Virus record (IMG/VR): IMGVR_UViG_3300044822_000198
Coordinates: 1-30,746 of that record
DNA length: 30,746 nucleotides
Strand: one strand, 5' to 3'
From: a virus
The notes beneath the pieces were generated by a model. It worked only from the letters and a program-made list of their open reading frames with translations. It did no database searches and was not told the DNA's origin. Of the stretch, positions 5,729-28,545 are shown piece by piece (the stretch's first letter is position 1; each line of letters opens with the position of its first letter). A program made the translations under genes and the position numbers.

Positions 5729-7570
5729 TTAACCTCTCATCTTCGCTCGCGACAAAGCCGATTCTACTAATCCAGAAAAACCTCGATTCGGCGAAGCGGG
5801 CGTAGTAGAATGCGGCGGCTGGTGCGGTGCATGCTGTTGTTGCGGCGATTCCTTCTGCTGCCTATCCATCTTATCCGTCAATGCCTTTATCTTATCCCCC
5901 AGGTCTTCCAAGGCGTCAATCAGCCTTTCGGTGTTCCGGTCATCGAAGCCTCCCGATCCGCCTTGCTGCTGACCGAATGCCTGCCAAGAGGATATTTCGC
6001 CTTCCCGATGACGCCACAGCCTTTCTCGTTGACCAGGATGAAAGGCGTCGTACACCGAACCGGCGAAGCGGCCAACGTCGCCAAGCTGCTCAAAGAGGCC
6101 ATGTTTTTCGCGGAGTTCTTCGTAGGACTGACGGCGGGGACGCGGTTCGTCGTCGGGGTCGGTGCGCCAGCGTTTGCGGGATGGGCGAGCTTCGGGACGA
6201 ACTTCTGGAGGCTCGTTCAGGTCTGGTGTAGAAATTATGGGCGTCGTTTCGTATCCTTCGCGTTCAGGGCCTATCGGCGTCGTTTTGTAAGTTGAACCAG
6301 AAAACAAGTCGTCTTTATCAGGCATTGCCGATGACCGGCGTTTCGCCTCATGTTGATGCAGATTCTTTCTGCGAGAGACAGAAGGTGAGATGTCCAACAG
6401 GCTATCAAGGTTGTGATGTTGCTCCGAACTTATTTTTTCTTCCGTTGGCGCGGATGCCAGTTCAGGATTGTATTGCGGCCGATAGGCTTCTTCTCGCTCC
6501 CGTTGTTCTTGAGTTAGGAAAGGCTCCCGCGTCTTCCCGCCGATAGCTTTCAATTCTTCTTCACTGAACTGGGTATACCAAGGCTTTTGCGGAGCCACTT
6601 CTGGATGCCACCAGATGGGTTGGTGGCTTCGCATTTGTTCTTCTGGAGTCAATGTTGGGGTTTGCAGTTTGGTTATTTTGCCGCCATCATGATACCCCTG
6701 GATGCCTTGCGCCGTCGCATCAATCCCCGCGTTTATCTTCTCCAGTACTGCTTTGTTTTGAGGCTTCTGGGCATCTTTAGCATTGACTATGTATTCATCG
6801 GGCGCGGCGATGATGACCTTGGAGTCTTGTCCTTTTAACGGGCCTTCTACTTCCCCTCCGGAAGCATAGGCTATGCGGTCATCGGCCGAATCCCAGGTGC
6901 CGCGATTGCGGGTCGATTTGATTTGAGAAGGATTGAAGGCGACGTATTCTTGCGAAGCAGAACCATAGGATACGCTGCCAGGATTGTTGCTTCCGGCAAT
7001 GTCAGCTACAACGCCGTCGTAGCCCATATCCATTAGGACATCACGAACAGCATCAGAAAGCATCTTTTCATCAAGAGAACCTCCATTGCTCCAATCTCTT
7101 TCAGGATCGTAGACAAATCCTGTGCGACGGACTACCTCATCATGGATCGCGTCCGGCAATCGTTCTCCGCGCATTACGAGACCGCGAACTCCTTGCGTTT
7201 TCTTGCCCCAATGGAAAGGATTCCGGAGATTCAAAAATACATCGGCTACGTTGGCTCCTTCATCGCGGCCAGCATAGTAATCGGCCACTCTTGAATTGTC
7301 AGTGAAGTATGAGCCAGTTCCCATGAATCCGGAATCGATATTCGATCCTGCTTTTGACATATCGAAAGCGTCAAAAGCTGAACGTGAACCATGAAAAACC
7401 TTCTTCGGTTTGCCGCTTTCGTCTACCACTTTGCTTTCGCCAAACCATGATTGGAAGGCTATGTTGTTTGAATTTGCTGCTGAAATTGGCGATGACGGTC
7501 GATCATCACTAGACGAAGAAATATCCGGCGGTGCAATGCGATCTGTCGGCGGAGTCGGGTTGATGTCCAC
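5729..7570 (-). CDS. virion protein: polyvalent-type ADP-ribosyltransferase fused to tape-measure-like motif
   Basis: A 613-aa protein in three parts. Residues 40-220 form an ADP-ribosyltransferase of the polyvalent-protein type: FGESKVVDESGKPKKVFHGS (His60), GSYFTDNSRVADYYAG (Tyr88), QEYVAFNPSQIKS (Glu208), an H-Y-E triad. Residues 236-282 match the tape-measure C-terminal motif (ASGGEVEGP...DEYIVNAKDAQK...LEKINAG). After a Pro/charged linker, residues 483-524 hold a block (LREKHGLFEQLG...YDAFHPGQRERLWRHRE) that recurs in the 55-aa protein at 19045. Such ARTs transfer ADP-ribose from NAD+ to a target. Placement in the tail operon suggests packaging and delivery to the host. The target is unknown. 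Confidence 0.75.
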   Translation of the reverse strand: MDINPTPPTDRIAPPDISSSSDDRPSSPISAANSNNIAFQSWFGESKVVDESGKPKKVFHGSRSAFDAFDMSKAGSNIDSGFMGTGSYFTDNSRVADYYAGRDEGANVADVFLNLRNPFHWGKKTQGVRGLVMRGERLPDAIHDEVVRRTGFVYDPERDWSNGGSLDEKMLSDAVRDVLMDMGYDGVVADIAGSNNPGSVSYGSASQEYVAFNPSQIKSTRNRGTWDSADDRIAYASGGEVEGPLKGQDSKVIIAAPDEYIVNAKDAQKPQNKAVLEKINAGIDATAQGIQGYHDGGKITKLQTPTLTPEEQMRSHQPIWWHPEVAPQKPWYTQFSEEELKAIGGKTREPFLTQEQREREEAYRPQYNPELASAPTEEKISSEQHHNLDSLLDISPSVSRRKNLHQHEAKRRSSAMPDKDDLFSGSTYKTTPIGPEREGYETTPIISTPDLNEPPEVRPEARPSRKRWRTDPDDEPRPRRQSYEELREKHGLFEQLGDVGRFAGSVYDAFHPGQRERLWRHREGEISSWQAFGQQQGGSGGFDDRNTERLIDALEDLGDKIKALTDKMDRQQKESPQQQHAPHQPPHSTTPASPNRGFSGLVESALSRAKMRG

Positions 7571-10327: not shown

Positions 10328-11413
10328 TTAGCTCAGAATGTTCGTGATGTTGAAACCAGTGATGGTTGAAGGCGTGATGAACGTCCGGTAGTCCACCACG
10401 CGGCCTTCTTCCAACTTGTCCCAGTATTCGGTTTTGGCTTCGACGGCCATGTCGTACTTGTGCCAATAGCACTGAACGGTTGAAAAGCTTCGTGCCCCGA
10501 ACGGAGCGTCAATCGCGCCGACGCGGGACAAGAGAACCGCGTAATTGTCGGCCTTCGCGTAAACGCGGGTGCCAGGGACTTGCGGATTGCCGCCGACGCT
10601 AGGATAGTTGTTCACGAAGACCGCATCCTCGACCACGAGCGGGAATCCGTAGAGGTTGTTGGGAAGCCCCCAAAGTTCATTCGGGTTGTCCCAAGCTTTC
10701 TCCAGGATGCTCGGCGAAGACGCCTGCTGCTTCACGAAATCGACGATCTCCTGCGAAGCCGCAGTTGCTATGGCCGCATTCGGATTGATGACCACCATCA
10801 TATCCTTGGGCCGAACGCAGCCGTTCGTGAGGAAGCAGATGATTCGAGCGGCCGAAAGCAGCGATTTCTTGATCGTCTGAAGGTTGCTCGTGCTGTTGGC
10901 CCACGTCGAACCAACCGCGTTCCCCGCAAGCTGAGCGGCGCTGCCGGTATTCGTCGATGGCCAGTTGGTAGGCGTGTCCAGTTGCAGCGTGCCGCCAGGG
11001 GACCAAATATCGATGGTCCGCAGCGTCATGGCCTGTTGAGCCATCGCCTTGGCTTCGTAGGTGACTGGGTCCCATCCCGCGTAAGCCTGAGCCTGCTGGA
11101 CGCCTTCCTGATCGAGCGTGAACGGAAACGCCAACCGCTCGCATTGGAAGTTGTCGATCTCGAAGTCGCCGATGTTCGCATGGCCTTGTGGGGCACGCGC
11201 CCCAGGTGCCCAAGCGAAGTTGGCCTTCGCCGGAATGCGGACGGGATGATCAGGGTCAAGCTTGTAGTAGACGCCGGTAACACTGGGCGTCTCGACAAAC
11301 TGGCAATATCGCGGCAAAGCGAATTCGCGCGGGTCTCTGATGTACCCGACTACCGTTCCCGTGGCAATGGGAAGGTGCGTGTTTGTAGGCGAAAGATACC
11401 GTTGATTGGCCAT
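10328..11413 (-). CDS. major capsid protein (HK97-fold expected)
   Basis: A 361-aa protein following the protease/scaffold and decoration genes. Sequence features fit HK97-type capsid proteins of this order: a short N-arm, an E-loop-like stretch (PVRIPAKANFAWAPGARAPQG), a long helix followed by a P-domain region (YEAKAMAQQAMTLRTIDIWSPGG), an A-domain segment with RPKDMMVVINPNAAIATAASQEIVDFVK, YGFPLVVEDAVFVNN, and a C-terminal DYRTFITPSTITGF strand. No catalytic role. Start ATG (MANQRYLSP) chosen from composition; the preceding 170 nt carries a long-range inverted repeat. Confidence 0.75.
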   Translation of the reverse strand: MANQRYLSPTNTHLPIATGTVVGYIRDPREFALPRYCQFVETPSVTGVYYKLDPDHPVRIPAKANFAWAPGARAPQGHANIGDFEIDNFQCERLAFPFTLDQEGVQQAQAYAGWDPVTYEAKAMAQQAMTLRTIDIWSPGGTLQLDTPTNWPSTNTGSAAQLAGNAVGSTWANSTSNLQTIKKSLLSAARIICFLTNGCVRPKDMMVVINPNAAIATAASQEIVDFVKQQASSPSILEKAWDNPNELWGLPNNLYGFPLVVEDAVFVNNYPSVGGNPQVPGTRVYAKADNYAVLLSRVGAIDAPFGARSFSTVQCYWHKYDMAVEAKTEYWDKLEEGRVVDYRTFITPSTITGFNITNILS

Positions 11414-11585: not shown

Positions 11586-12029
11586 TCACGGCGAACCAGC
11601 ACCCTGAACGACGCGGTAGGCCGCGACCTTCACCTTGACCAACTGACTCGCCGCCGTGGGTGTTTCCAGGGCAATCGCACTGATGTTGTCGCCGGCGGTA
11701 TTCGCGTAGATGCCATAACCGCTTGCCGCCGACTTGAGGCACTGTCCGCTGGAGAATGATGCTCCTGCCGTGAGCAAGCATTCGTCGCCTTCGGTGTACA
11801 CCAAAATCTGATCGGCTTGCTGCGGGTAGGCTTCAGCGGTGCCCGCGTAGCCGTCATCCAGGAGCGACCACGGCGGAAGATGGGTGCCTTCTTGCGAGAT
11901 GCCGACGCACGGATCGCCGGCGTTACCGGTGCCGGCAGTACCCAGCAAGACTTGCCCGTCAACGCCGGTATCGCACTTCACGAAAGCGGAAGGATAGATG
12001 TTGCCGGCGCAGTAAAAGCTTCTGCTCAT
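11586..12029 (-). CDS. capsid decoration/stabilisation protein (DUF2190-like)
   Basis: A 147-aa protein rich in Gly, Ala, Ser and Thr: SAFVKCDTGVDGQVLLGTAGTGNAGDPCVGISQEG, a PWSLLDDGYAGTAEAYP segment and a C-terminal VKVKVAAYRVVQG strand. This composition and the position between the scaffold/protease and capsid genes match head decoration proteins of the DUF2190 sort that trimerise on the capsid surface. The assignment is from order and composition. Confidence 0.6.
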   Translation of the reverse strand: MSRSFYCAGNIYPSAFVKCDTGVDGQVLLGTAGTGNAGDPCVGISQEGTHLPPWSLLDDGYAGTAEAYPQQADQILVYTEGDECLLTAGASFSSGQCLKSAASGYGIYANTAGDNISAIALETPTAASQLVKVKVAAYRVVQGAGSP

Positions 12030-15207: not shown

Positions 15208-15569
15208 TCTGGCATTGCTTCCCAGGGGCCAGGGGCCAGGGGCCAGGGGGCCAGGGGCCAGGGGGCCAGGGGGCCAGGGGCCAGGGGCCAGGGGCCAGGG
15301 GCCAGCCAGGGCCAGGGGCCAGGGGCCAGCCAGGGCCAGGGGCCAGGGGGCCAGGGGCCAGGGGCCAGGGGCCAGCCAGGGCCAGGGGCCAGGGGGCCAG
15401 GGGCCAGGGGGCCCGCAGGTCGCCTGGCCTGTCGCCGGAAAGCGGCGCTGTTGGCACGCTGACCTCCTTGCGGACCACCCGTGGCGGGGAGATCGGCACC
15501 GGCTTGGCCGGGGTTCGCAGCCTTGGCCAGCAGGTCGGTGATCTTCGCTTCGTACATGTCAAGGTCCAT
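15156..15569 (-). CDS. hypothetical protein with Pro/Ala/Gly/Trp heptamer-encoded middle
   Basis: The ATG at 15569 has GGAG 7 nt upstream and overlaps the previous gene. The N-terminal 47 residues (MDLDMYEAKITDLLAKAANP...) look normal. Then the frame reads the GGGGCCA array as P/A/G/W repeats (WPLAPGPWPL) and ends after 22 further residues. In this copy number the protein exits in one of three frames. The repeat part is unlikely to be structured. Repeat changes would alter the C-terminus. Confidence 0.5.
   Translation of the reverse strand: MDLDMYEAKITDLLAKAANPGQAGADLPATGGPQGGQRANSAAFRRQARRPAGPLAPGPLAPGPGWPLAPGPWPPGPWPWLAPGPWPWLAPGPWPLAPGPLAPWPLAPWPLAPGPWEAMPDWMYLGRAQMLLSWLMA
15222..15413. 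repeat. GGGGCCA heptanucleotide array with 8-nt variants
   Basis: About 190 nt of GGGGCCA units, some extended to GGGGGCCA or shortened to GCCAGCCAGG. All three minus-strand frames are free of stops, because the array only encodes P, A, L, G and W. A 7-nt unit is not a multiple of three, so every gain or loss of a unit switches the downstream frame. The array is not CRISPR-like: there are no spacers. Confidence 0.9.
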
Positions 15570-16335: not shown

Positions 16336-16398
16336 ACGAGTGAACTATTGCCGCGCAAAGTTGCGGAGTCAACCGAAAAAGAAAATAAAAATTATCTT

Positions 16399-18022: not shown

Positions 18023-18529
18023 TCATTCCGCAGGACTATCGCTCAACTCCTGCGGAACCCCATTAACCTCAACGGGAATCAGAGCAGGCTTGGCGGACAG
18101 GGCTTCCAGGCGTTCAGCTTGTTTTTGCAGGCCTTCAAGGACGCGGCGCGTTTCGATTTCCTCAGTGAATCTGAAGTGGGCCTGAATCACCGTCGAAGCC
18201 GCCGCGATCCAGACTTTGTACGGCGCATTATCATCGGCAAGGATTTGCGAAAGCCGCTCATAGGCTGCAAAGGTAGTAGACGGGAAACGGGCCATCATGT
18301 CTCTGATTATCGCCTCCTTGGCTCGCCTCAACGCACGTTGAAAATCTGGGTAAGACTCAGAGTGTATCCACTTGAGGACAATCGTTTTCGTTACTCCACA
18401 GGTCTTAGCCGTATCGACAATGCTCCTTCCCGCAAGCAAACTACGCAGGCCATGCAATTGCCGAACGGGAAGCCGAGCCATAACCTCAACAGTAGCCTTA
18501 CTTTGCGACATGTCCATTAAGTATCCCAT
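18023..18529 (-). CDS. helix-turn-helix protein (terminase-small-like or regulator)
   Basis: 168 aa, acidic C-terminus. Residues 25-60 are a clear helix-turn-helix (GLRSLLAGRSIVDTAKTCGVTKTIVLKWI), followed by helices (FQRALRRAKEAIIRDMMARF) and a charged coiled coil (FTEEIETRRVLEGLQKQAERLEAL). This layout, HTH then long helices, is common to small terminase subunits and to phage DNA-binding proteins. It stands alone in antisense among early genes and no large terminase is visible, so a regulator is equally likely. Confidence 0.55.
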   Translation of the reverse strand: MGYLMDMSQSKATVEVMARLPVRQLHGLRSLLAGRSIVDTAKTCGVTKTIVLKWIHSESYPDFQRALRRAKEAIIRDMMARFPSTTFAAYERLSQILADDNAPYKVWIAAASTVIQAHFRFTEEIETRRVLEGLQKQAERLEALSAKPALIPVEVNGVPQELSDSPAE

Positions 18530-18733
18530 TGTTGCCTGCTGGTATTATCGCAAGAAAAGGCGGGGAACGGCAAGGGAGACTATCCCCCTGAGAGCCGCCC
18601 CCCAAAATAATTTTGCCGATTTTCCGGTGGCGTCTTTCGGCCGACTTGAAACGTTGCAAGCGGGCGCAAAGTGATTGTACGCAAATGTTTGCGGCTTGAG
18701 GCGAAACGATTTCCACAATTCCGAAGTATTTAT

Positions 18734-18761
18734 TTGCATTATTCAAATCGCGTGCTATTAT
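18734..18761 (+). promoter_or_regulatory. early-type promoter with TTTG-TTCAAA dyad
   Basis: TTGCAT (18734-18739), 16-nt spacer, TATTAT (18756-18761), inside TTTGCATTATTCAAA. Followed by the leader TTATGTCGGCAAACGAAACA, also present after the 20171 promoter (TTATGTCGGCAGGGGAAACA). The 200 nt before it (18530-18733) show no gene. Confidence 0.7.
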
Positions 18762-18804: not shown

Positions 18805-18975
18805 ATGTACCAGATCAAATTCCAGTGCGGCTATGAAATCCAGGTGATCGGCCGCGGCGATGCCGGTCTGTGCCGCGTGGTCAACAGCAGCAATCAGATC
18901 GTGTACTCCGGCACTTATGCGGCTTGCGAAAAATGGCTGGCTGATCGCGCTGTGCCGGCCCTGTGCGGGATGTAG
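18805..18975 (+). CDS. MYQIKxQCGYEIQV small-protein family, copy 1
   Basis: 56 aa (MYQIKFQCGYEIQVIGRG...), ribosome-binding site AAGGGAG. It shares an almost identical start and the ending (C..WLADR) with the 50-aa protein at 20239; the two have the same promoter and leader, so promoter plus gene were duplicated. Beta-rich, with a Cys and conserved Trp, function unknown. A strong hairpin follows. Confidence 0.6.
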   Translation: MYQIKFQCGYEIQVIGRGDAGLCRVVNSSNQIVYSGTYAACEKWLADRAVPALCGM

Positions 18976-18994
18976 CGGTTCTGAGGGAAATCCC

Positions 18995-19021
18995 CAACTG
19001 GGACAAAATGTCCCAGTTGGA
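18995..19021. terminator. 12-bp perfect hairpin with AAA loop
   Basis: CCAACTGGGACA-AAA-TGTCCCAGTTGG lies between the 18805 and 19045 genes. It lacks a T-run, so it may act as a processing or protein-binding hairpin rather than an intrinsic terminator, or as a DNA operator. Confidence 0.5.
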
Positions 19022-19044: not shown

Positions 19045-19212
19045 ATGGCCAAGAAAGCAAAGAAGCCAAAACTGACCGTGGAACAGCTCCGGCAAAAGTA
19101 TTGTCTGTTTTCGCAGCTTGGAGCGATTGGCGTGATTCTGGGGGACTTTTACGATGCCATGCACCCTGGGCGGCGGGAGCGTATCTGGCGTCAACGGGAG
19201 AAGCAGTCATGA
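19045..19212 (+). CDS. 55-aa stand-alone LFxQLG-YDAxHPGxRER domain protein
   Basis: 55 aa with a Lys-rich opening (MAKKAKKPKLTVEQLRQKYC), GGAGAG before the ATG. Residues 12-52 are 24/42 identical to residues 483-524 of the virion ADP-ribosyltransferase (shared LF-x-QLG, YDAxHPGxRER, WRxRE). It is therefore a paralogue of that C-terminal block, here expressed alone from an early operon. It may bind the same partner, for example to inhibit or guide the virion protein. It ends in ATGA with the next gene. Confidence 0.65.
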   Translation: MAKKAKKPKLTVEQLRQKYCLFSQLGAIGVILGDFYDAMHPGRRERIWRQREKQS

Positions 19213-19325
19213 CCGATTTCACTTGGGACGAGTGGACCTCACTGGGGATCGCCTGTGCCTTGACAGCGTGGGCCGGCTCGCAGATGACCTGGAATGTTGT
19301 GCTGGCGTTGCTTGGATCGATGTAA
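19209..19325 (+). CDS. very small membrane-associated peptide
   Basis: 38 aa (MTDFTWDEWTSLGIACALTA...) starting in ATGA with the 55-aa gene. Acidic/Trp-rich start then one hydrophobic helix (WNVVLALLG) that could be a transmembrane segment. The coupling to the upstream gene is the main support. Confidence 0.45.
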   Translation: MTDFTWDEWTSLGIACALTAWAGSQMTWNVVLALLGSM

Positions 19326-19349: not shown

Positions 19350-19541
19350 ATGGACCCGAACACAGACGATTTGCCGGTGGATTGCCCTGATTGCCGAGGC
19401 CGAGGCGAGATATTCGAGCGGGTGTGGGCCGACCTGGGTTGGCATCGGTCGGTGGAGTGCCCGACGTGCGAGGGAGCCGGCCTGATCGACGCGGAAGAGG
19501 CGAGGCGGCTGCGAGGGGAAGCGATGGCGGAAAAACTGTAA
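19350..19541 (+). CDS. DnaJ-type zinc finger protein
   Basis: 63 aa with two CxxCxGxG half-sites, CPDCRGRG (residues 12-19) and CPTCEGAG (37-44), the cysteine-rich fold of DnaJ and anti-TRAP. Such small proteins bind zinc and usually a protein partner; RNA or protein regulation is possible. AGAGG precedes the ATG. Charged C-terminal helix. Confidence 0.7.
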   Translation: MDPNTDDLPVDCPDCRGRGEIFERVWADLGWHRSVECPTCEGAGLIDAEEARRLRGEAMAEKL

Positions 19542-20238: not shown

Positions 20239-20391
20239 ATGTACCAAATTAAGTATCAATGCGGGTACGAAATCCAAGTAGCCGGCCGCCGGTGTCGAGT
20301 GGCCGACAGCAACAATGCCATCGTACTCGACTGGACCACCTATGAAGCCTGCCTTGCCTGGCTAGCCGACCGCTCTGTGCGGCCGCTGTGA
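20239..20391 (+). CDS. MYQIKxQCGYEIQV small-protein family, copy 2
   Basis: 50 aa, paralogue of the 18805 protein: identical MYQIK(F/Y)QCGYEIQV start and C..WLADR end. GGAGAA precedes the ATG. The duplicated unit includes promoter, leader and gene. Unknown function. After it a GGGCCGG/CCGGCCC hairpin (near 20440) lies in otherwise gene-free DNA to 20520. Confidence 0.55.
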   Translation: MYQIKYQCGYEIQVAGRRCRVADSNNAIVLDWTTYEACLAWLADRSVRPL

Positions 20392-26080: not shown

Positions 26081-26650
26081 GTGGTTATCTATCCGTTCAC
26101 CGAAGACGACTTGGCTGTCGCCTACAACAAATGGCATTGCAACTGCGGTCCTTCCGCCTTGGCGTTCGCGCTGCAAATCAGCCTGGACAAGGTTCGTGGC
26201 GCGATTCCTGGTTTCGAGGAAAGACGATACACGTCGCCGACGATGATGAAAGGCGGCTTGCGAAATCTTGGCGCGTCCTTCGAAGAGTTCCCCGCCGACC
26301 TTGCGAACATGTTCCGCGTGGATCATACCGAGCGGATCAACCTCGTCCGTGTGCAATGGTGCGGCCCGTGGACGAAGCGTGGGGCAAATCCGAAGTGGGC
26401 CTACCGGCAGACCCATTGGATTGCGACGTGGTCAACGCACGAAACGATGCCGCCGTTTCTTGGTAAGTACAAGAAAACGCGCGTTGGCTTGTTCGTGTTC
26501 GACTGCAACGGCGGAATACGTTCCTTCGATTCCTGGAAAAAGGAAATAGTACCCACGCTGGTTGCGATGTATCCGCGTGCAGACGGAGCTTGGTTTCCAA
26601 CACATGTCTGGAGTGTGTCGCGTCCTCCCTTCCTTGCCGAGAAAGGTTGA
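26081..26650 (+). CDS. papain-like (C39-type) cysteine peptidase-like protein
   Basis: 189 aa from a GTG with GGAG 9 nt upstream. NKWHCNCGPSALAFAL (Cys22, residues 17-31), RQTHWIATWS (His112), VFDCNGGIRSFD (Asp141): a Cys-His-Asp set in family order. N-terminal Cys motif CNCGPSAL is the 'NCGPxAL' signature of papain-like phage and toxin proteases. No signal peptide. Substrate unknown; possible host-protein target, or a phage precursor. Independent of the 2305 peptidase in sequence. Confidence 0.65.
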   Translation: MVIYPFTEDDLAVAYNKWHCNCGPSALAFALQISLDKVRGAIPGFEERRYTSPTMMKGGLRNLGASFEEFPADLANMFRVDHTERINLVRVQWCGPWTKRGANPKWAYRQTHWIATWSTHETMPPFLGKYKKTRVGLFVFDCNGGIRSFDSWKKEIVPTLVAMYPRADGAWFPTHVWSVSRPPFLAEKG

Positions 26651-26655
26651 AGTTC

Positions 26656-27093
26656 ATGGACCTAACGAAACTAACGCCGTTGCCGCTGACAAAGGTGCGG
26701 TCTGAACTTGATGGCATGTTCATGATTCGGGAAATCTATGGCAAAGAGGTGGACATAGATTTTTTCATTCTCGCTCGCAACGCTTTCGGCGTGATGATGC
26801 GGCGCGGCTGGGAGGTAGTCTGCGTGAACTTCAGAAAACCTTCCCAGGGATGGGCTGTTCGTTTTCCAAGTGGAAAGACGGGTCCATGCTACGATGACCC
26901 CTTCACGGCTCTCGTGGAAGCCGCATTCCATTCCGTTGTCCTGAAGTTGCTTCTGTATTCTGGTTGCGGTGGACCCTTTCCTCTTGCGTGGCCTCTCGGT
27001 CCACTCTTTCAGGGTCGATCGCGAAACTGCTCTGCATGTCCGGCTCGCCAGGCGGATGGAAGATTGCTTTGCCCATGGCGCCCGTGCGGCTGA
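26656..27093 (+). CDS. ARNAFG(V/I)-RRGW family protein, C-terminus probably cut
   Basis: 145 aa. Residues 1-95 are paralogous to the protein at 27144 (shared ARNAFG-x-x-MRRGW, a GW.V strand and DPF.A/VV...). After VEAAFHSVV the composition changes and the frame overlaps the convergent 26903 gene by 190 nt. The family, common in planctomycetes, has unknown function. The gene appears truncated at a junction near 26940. Confidence 0.55.
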   Translation: MDLTKLTPLPLTKVRSELDGMFMIREIYGKEVDIDFFILARNAFGVMMRRGWEVVCVNFRKPSQGWAVRFPSGKTGPCYDDPFTALVEAAFHSVVLKLLLYSGCGGPFPLAWPLGPLFQGRSRNCSACPARQADGRLLCPWRPCG

Positions 27094-27157
27094 ACTCGGC
27101 GAAATCGCCGGCCTTCATGCGATAGAGGAGGCCTGGGATAAGGTCACTTTCCAGCAT
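26903..27157 (-). CDS. small hypothetical protein, convergent overlap
   Basis: 84 aa from the ATG at 27157 (overlaps the upstream gene by 14 nt). MLESDLIPGLLYRMKAGDFAEFSRTGAMGKAIFHPPGEPD: ordinary up to about residue 55, then the C-terminus (RNQNTEATSGQRNGMRLPREP) overlaps the 26656 gene and is odd. It may be truncated by the same junction. Confidence 0.5.
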   Translation of the reverse strand: MLESDLIPGLLYRMKAGDFAEFSRTGAMGKAIFHPPGEPDMQSSFAIDPERVDREATQEERVHRNQNTEATSGQRNGMRLPREP

Positions 27158-27629
27158 GGCTGTTCTCCACGTTTTTCTTGTACCAGTCCTCAACCATGAG
27201 CACGACCGAAAATGGGTCCTTGGCCCAGAGAAGGCACTTCCCCTTCGGTCCGATGATCGTGTGCTCATCGCCATCCTCGGCGTTCTCGCACACAACCCAG
27301 CCTTCGAGGTTCTTTCGGGCCTCATCGCCCCAAAGACGCAGGCGTTTGAGGCCCCAGCCACGCCGCATAAGGATTCCGAAGGCATTGCGAGCGACCACGC
27401 AAAACCTGAGATTGGCTGCCCCGACGGCATCGCGATAATGCGGACCGTCCTCGTCGCTGTCATCCTCGATCAGCATGGCCTCGCTGTTGCAGCTGTCAAA
27501 CAGTGCCTTGTTATCCGGCCCGGCAACTTGGCAGTACACCGTGTCAGCCGCTCGTTGATCCTGCTGGTCAAAATCCCAGGGGTCCGGCGTGAGATGGTGC
27601 AGATCGTGTGCTGTCAATGCTCTGCTCAT
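27144..27629 (-). CDS. ARNAFG(V/I)-RRGW family protein
   Basis: 161 aa, ribosome-binding site AAAGGAT with good spacing. N-terminal acidic part (FDQQDQRAADTVYCQVAGPDNKALFDSCNSEAMLIEDDSDEDGPHYRD), then the family core RFCVVARNAFGILMRRGWGLKRL, LEGWVVCENAEDG, and LLWAKDPFSVVLMVEDWYKKNVE. Paralogue of the 26656 gene in opposite orientation. Function unknown. Confidence 0.6.
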   Translation of the reverse strand: MSRALTAHDLHHLTPDPWDFDQQDQRAADTVYCQVAGPDNKALFDSCNSEAMLIEDDSDEDGPHYRDAVGAANLRFCVVARNAFGILMRRGWGLKRLRLWGDEARKNLEGWVVCENAEDGDEHTIIGPKGKCLLWAKDPFSVVLMVEDWYKKNVENSHAGK

Positions 27630-28420: not shown

Positions 28421-28545
28421 AACTCAGAAATGCGCGATATAATTGCATCGAGTGGTTTCTGAGTTTATGCGGGTCGTTTCCGCTGAAATTCCGTCAAGAG
28501 CCAGCCATCCCGAAAGGGTAGCTGGCTCCTGCCGTTTCATGGGGT
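28421..28545 (+). ncRNA. structured element B (copy of A)
   Basis: P1 AACTCAGAAA/TTTCTGAGTT (28421-28430 with 28456-28465), P2 GCGG-7 nt-CCGC (28469-28483), P3 GAGCCAGC/GCTGGCTC (28498-28528) with inner CCC-GAAA-GGG, then GTTTCATGGGGT (28534-28545). Same 48-nt spacing from P1 start to P2 as element A. TTGCCA (28415-28420), 17 nt, TATAAT (28438-28443) also reads as a strong promoter through P1, but it is not conserved in A. A gene starts 55 nt downstream. Confidence 0.55.

Follow-up and report, generated by a model that had tools for sequence, protein, structure and literature searches.

A small protein block shared by a putative virion ADP-ribosyltransferase and a free 55-residue protein of an uncharacterised phage

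The window (the whole 30,746-nt stretch of DNA analysed here) encodes one 40-residue protein block twice, near the C-terminal end of a 613-aa protein with an ADP-ribosyltransferase (ART) domain and in a stand-alone 55-aa protein, P0002. In a BLASTP comparison, residues 484-523 of the ART protein and residues 13-52 of P0002 are identical at 24 of 40 positions without a gap (E=4e-16). The block is a new two-member domain family, lineage-restricted, in an uncharacterised phage, and the ART that carries it is of a kind already known from phages. Our preferred reading, to which we give a probability of about 0.45, is that the block anchors the ART and that the free P0002 uses the same contact. The features of the two proteins are as follows.

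5729..7570, minus strand: 613-aa ADP-ribosyltransferase-containing protein, GTG start, Pfam ART-PolyVal match (1.6e-23)
6905..7423, minus strand: ART-PolyVal domain, residues 50-222, with catalytic H60, Y88 and E208 present
6002..6121, minus strand: shared block, ART residues 484-523, a predicted helix-turn-helix after a long disordered linker
5852..5941, minus strand: C-terminal long helix past the block, residues 544-573, a possible coiled coil (local pLDDT ~80)
19045..19212, plus strand: P0002, the 55-aa stand-alone protein, a MAKKAKKPKL tail plus the block, with a GGAG ribosome-binding site upstream of the ATG
19081..19200, plus strand: shared block, P0002 residues 13-52, from BLASTP and the AF2 helices

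Similarity and conservation of the two copies

The first-pass annotation had reported a small domain common to the two proteins, with 24 identities in 42 positions. The observation is real; the count becomes 24 in 40, and the coordinates given were right within two residues. The aligned block scores 137 with BLOSUM62, while the maximum among 3,000 shuffles was 52. When six-frame segments of the window were compared all against all, a single other paralogous pair ranked above the block pair (7.5e-14); this top-ranked duplication is the unrelated pair of 56-aa and 50-aa early genes at 18805 and 20239. A profile made from the two copies, searched against the phage's own record (which also served as a control), hits just the two block sites and no third.

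Identity by codon position in the block is 26/34/16 of 40, so that second positions are largely identical (34/40) and third positions are close to random (16/40). The same codon is used at 12 of the 24 conserved residues, when about 9.5 would be expected from codon usage, and the NG86 estimates are dN=0.32 and dS=2.28, which are rough values for 40 codons. This codon pattern identifies the pair as an old duplication in which the protein was kept and not the DNA, and as neither chance nor a recent DNA duplication. Because silent sites are saturated while the protein is kept, both frames are coding and both copies have been under purifying selection; by the same pattern, the frames under selection are the matching protein frames and not the overlapping antisense ORFs. 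That the 55-aa ORF is a real gene is very probable, chiefly because the protein is constrained in both copies. What selection kept, as judged from these substitutions, is the protein surface, and with two sequences only, a fine mapping of conservation within the block is not possible.

In the AF2 model of P0002, obtained from the two-sequence alignment (pLDDT 73, pTM 0.36), a helix at residues 12-39 is followed by an HPG turn and a second helix at 43-54. The block stretch is also helical in the ART model (483-495, 498-509 and 512-535), which has a mean pLDDT of 46 from 7 sequences and is read for secondary structure only; it is too weak to place the block against the ART domain. With the same low confidence, the ~110 residues before the block are almost without structure (397-480 mostly unstructured), and a long helix (544-573) follows the block. 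The prediction for the block is thus a helical hairpin that closes a long disordered linker on the C-terminal side of the ART-PolyVal domain; most simply, this modelled fold would be read as a module for docking or self-association, carried by a flexible tether. The best Foldseek match against BFVD (E=1.6) is meaningless.

Gene contexts of the two copies

The profile match of the ART protein to ART-PolyVal (PF18760) reaches 84.4 bits, against a gathering score of 31.2. Its H60, Y88 and E208 line up with the corresponding residues of relatives, among them those in Tunturiibacter phage Tunturi_5 and Pseudomonas phage F116. The active site of ART-PolyVal has been given as H-Y-D (PMC5512222); the window ART and its relatives carry E as the acid, and one relative has F as the middle residue. 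Residues 233-300 resemble tape measure proteins. The gene sits between genes for 123-aa and 530-aa proteins in a minus-strand structural cluster, and ahead of it on the same strand lies a match to a head scaffolding family (11586-12029; phrog_673), while the product of 10328-11413 is taken for the major capsid protein by position only. The proteins of the capsid cluster had no match among cultured phages.

The closest relatives of the ART are located inside large phage proteins; the one in Tunturi_5 adjoins a minor head protein, and the one in F116 lies just ahead of holin and lysozyme. The ARTs of such large phage proteins have been argued to be packaged and injected (PMC5512222; later NAD/ADPr survey PMC9503650). 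From the ART-PolyVal domain, the tape-measure-like segment, the late-gene neighbours and the relatives in large phage polyvalent proteins, we infer that the ART is likely located in the virion. The protein has one known domain only, which distinguishes it from the multi-enzyme polyvalent virion effectors.

P0002 lies in a cluster of plus-strand genes with the following elements.

18733..18761, plus strand: nearest promoter-like site ahead of the P0002 operon, a promoter/operator in which TTTGCATTATTCAAA overlaps the -35, with a TATTAT -10; one of six such sites
18994..19020, plus strand: RNA hairpin of 12 bp, immediately ahead of the ribosome-binding site of P0002 (z=-3.0)
19209..19325, plus strand: 38-aa hydrophobic ORF, its start overlapping the stop of P0002 (ATGA); co-translation is likely
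19350..19541, plus strand: 63-aa zinc-finger protein, next in the same direction, of the Anti-TRAP / DnaJ CxxCxGxG type, with a weak match to a Q-like antiterminator

The near-palindrome TTTGnATTrTTCAAA precedes plus-strand genes at 16398, 17456, 18733, 20170, 21388 and 23109, and each of these six sites overlaps the -35 of a sigma-70-like promoter and is followed by a TATnnT-like -10. On both strands together the window holds nine matches to it, where 0.37 would be expected. A phage or host repressor is likely to use the repeated element as a common operator. The six sites support the view that the plus-strand units are co-regulated and probably early, and it is from this gene context that we infer P0002 to be an early protein. 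Among the units, the small genes at 18805-18975 and 20239-20391 are paralogous (MYQIKxQCGYEIQV..., 59% identical), with promoter and leader duplicated too.

Several other features were recorded in the window. The middle of a TnpB gene (292-1803, minus) runs antisense to a plus-strand gene for an HNH endonuclease (1054-1647), and the antisense frame stays open; the N-terminal HTH and C-terminal RuvC/TNB of TnpB match Pfam, and the HNH gene occupies the part between them. Two inverted paralogues (26590-27093, plus; 27144-27629, minus) have ARNAFGxxMRRGW in common. A hairpin element, GAGCCAG...CTGGCTC followed by GTTTCATGGGGT, occurs in two copies (1949-1996 and 28498-28545) that are 77% identical and 26.5 kb apart, and a dense irregular CCAGGGG array of ~230 bp, G-rich on one strand, is found at 15211-15441. 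A CTG/CTGATG triplet repeat runs from 30605 to the contig end at 30746, possibly an assembly break in a repeat-coding gene. A weak match to a terminase small subunit (18023-18529, minus; phrog_3218, 6e-4) lies among plus-strand genes. No large terminase or portal was recognised in the window, so the contig is probably incomplete.

A possible common contact and its alternatives

Under the preferred reading, the block would be a small, phage-lineage-specific helical-hairpin module for docking or self-association, duplicated long ago within the phage. Because the block ends a disordered linker of ~110 residues, ahead of the C-terminal long helix, it would most likely tether the catalytic domain of the ART to a partner, which might be part of the virion, a host complex or a second block. 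P0002 would be the module alone with a basic tail, made from the plus-strand and probably early operon, and it might engage the partner of the ART before any new ART has been made, or pair with the ART block. A shared partner for the two proteins is plausible, as polar, charged or amphipathic-aromatic residues make up 14 of the 24 invariant positions; together with an invariant G-x2-G-x3-G in helix 1, these 14 positions exceed what folding of a hairpin alone needs. The stronger proposal, that an injected ART and a free early micro-protein reach one partner through the same new module and that the phage thus controls where or when its virion enzyme acts, by competition or pairing, is doubtful at present.

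The two copies could also have diverged to different partners. On this view there was only domain shuffling, by fusion of an early gene into the ART or in the opposite direction, and the copies now have separate roles with no partner in common. This is possible but rather unlikely: the phage contains other internal duplications, and the copies differ at helix-1 positions (R18V, D15A and E11S) and in charge (13 K/R to 5 D/E in P0002; 7 to 9 in the ART block), but many polar positions have stayed identical despite the saturated silent sites.

The first-pass annotation had gone from the shared domain, which stands, to a shared partner and perhaps an inhibitor or antitoxin role for the free copy; for the latter role we found no positive evidence. 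P0002 would in that case be a cognate inhibitor, antitoxin or chaperone that pairs with the ART block in the producing cell and keeps the enzyme inactive or packaging-ready. The conserved glycine-rich helix could allow homotypic pairing, and with the catalytic residues intact, the cell that makes the enzyme may have to be protected from it. However, the copied piece is the C-terminal tether and not the ART domain, which is ~260 residues away in sequence across the disordered linker, and no model of defence or toxin-antitoxin systems was matched. Most toxin-antitoxin pairs have adjacent or co-transcribed genes, whereas the two genes here are ~11.5 kb apart on opposite strands. We consider this role improbable.

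Even less credit can be given to the idea that P0002 competes for the docking site used by the ART of an arriving virion, and thereby weakens a second infection or shuts it out. It is a free copy of a candidate virion module, the repeated palindromic operators of its gene cluster could be sites for a repressor, and it adjoins the 38-aa hydrophobic ORF; but there is no evidence for a temperate phage or for P0002 being made in lysogens, and the family searches gave no known exclusion protein.

Relatives of the block and comparison with known systems

P0002 matched no family in Pfam, PHROGs or PADLOC, and gave sub-threshold noise only in NCBIfam. For the block, there was no significant tblastn match in cultured phages or plasmids, no relative in IMG/VR (scanned with short exact patterns, by which diverged relatives can be missed), and no match in ~1,180 whole genomes of three bacterial phyla, to which the phage's host need not belong (the own-record control worked). 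IMG/VR scans with the ART or neighbouring proteins, as a route to sister phages, gave no block relative either. Some candidate loci were rejected: the match at one (L015) is out of frame with its siphovirus gene, and four others (L016, L036-L038) are chance matches. HMM E-values for L015-L036 are inflated, the loci having been chosen by the motif itself. In the PDB, the profile matched photosystem D1 at E=0.13, which is noise. In the literature, we found no precedent for an ART together with a free copy of this kind.

The pattern scan of GTDB contigs returned GH31 enzymes and chance matches, and no homologue. YDAxHPGxRE recurs in GH31 glycosidases as YDATHPGARExxW; beyond these, it gives just scattered chance matches. 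In GH31 alpha-glycosidases (YDATHPGAREFVW) the likeness is a local one, covering the turn and the start of the second helix with scores of 54-74, compared with 137 for the block pair, while the first helix has no similarity and the proteins are cellular enzymes. This is convergence. Across phages, plasmids, the PDB and the sampled genomes there was no significant full-block profile match, with GH31 partial, and hence the block was not found as a generic common helix in unrelated proteins. That the pair reflects a generic helix, convergence or chance, for which the GH31 motif would speak, is practically untenable, being refuted by E=4e-16 over 40 ungapped residues, the ranking in the window and the codon-position pattern.

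For most ARTs of the polyvalent class no target is known. If the partner is shared, P0002 would be a ready bait for the target, or for the virion anchor, of one of them, and the case would show that a phage is able to regulate an injected enzyme by a free copy of its own tether. The closest known system is the ART-PolyVal / Tox-ART-HYD2 domain of phage polyvalent proteins (PF18760; Iyer et al. 2017, PMC5512222), with which the window protein shares the ART domain, the catalytic H, Y and acid, and the structural-gene neighbourhood. Compared with these proteins, the window ART is short (613 aa) and single-enzyme and has its ART at the N-terminus, and its private C-terminal block is absent from the related proteins examined. 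Phage T4 offers a second comparison in Alt, an injected ART, and its paralogues ModA/ModB (PMC5512222). In both phages a probable virion ART shares sequence with another gene of the same phage; in T4, however, the catalytic domain is common to the proteins, whereas in the window phage it is the 40-residue non-catalytic module only.
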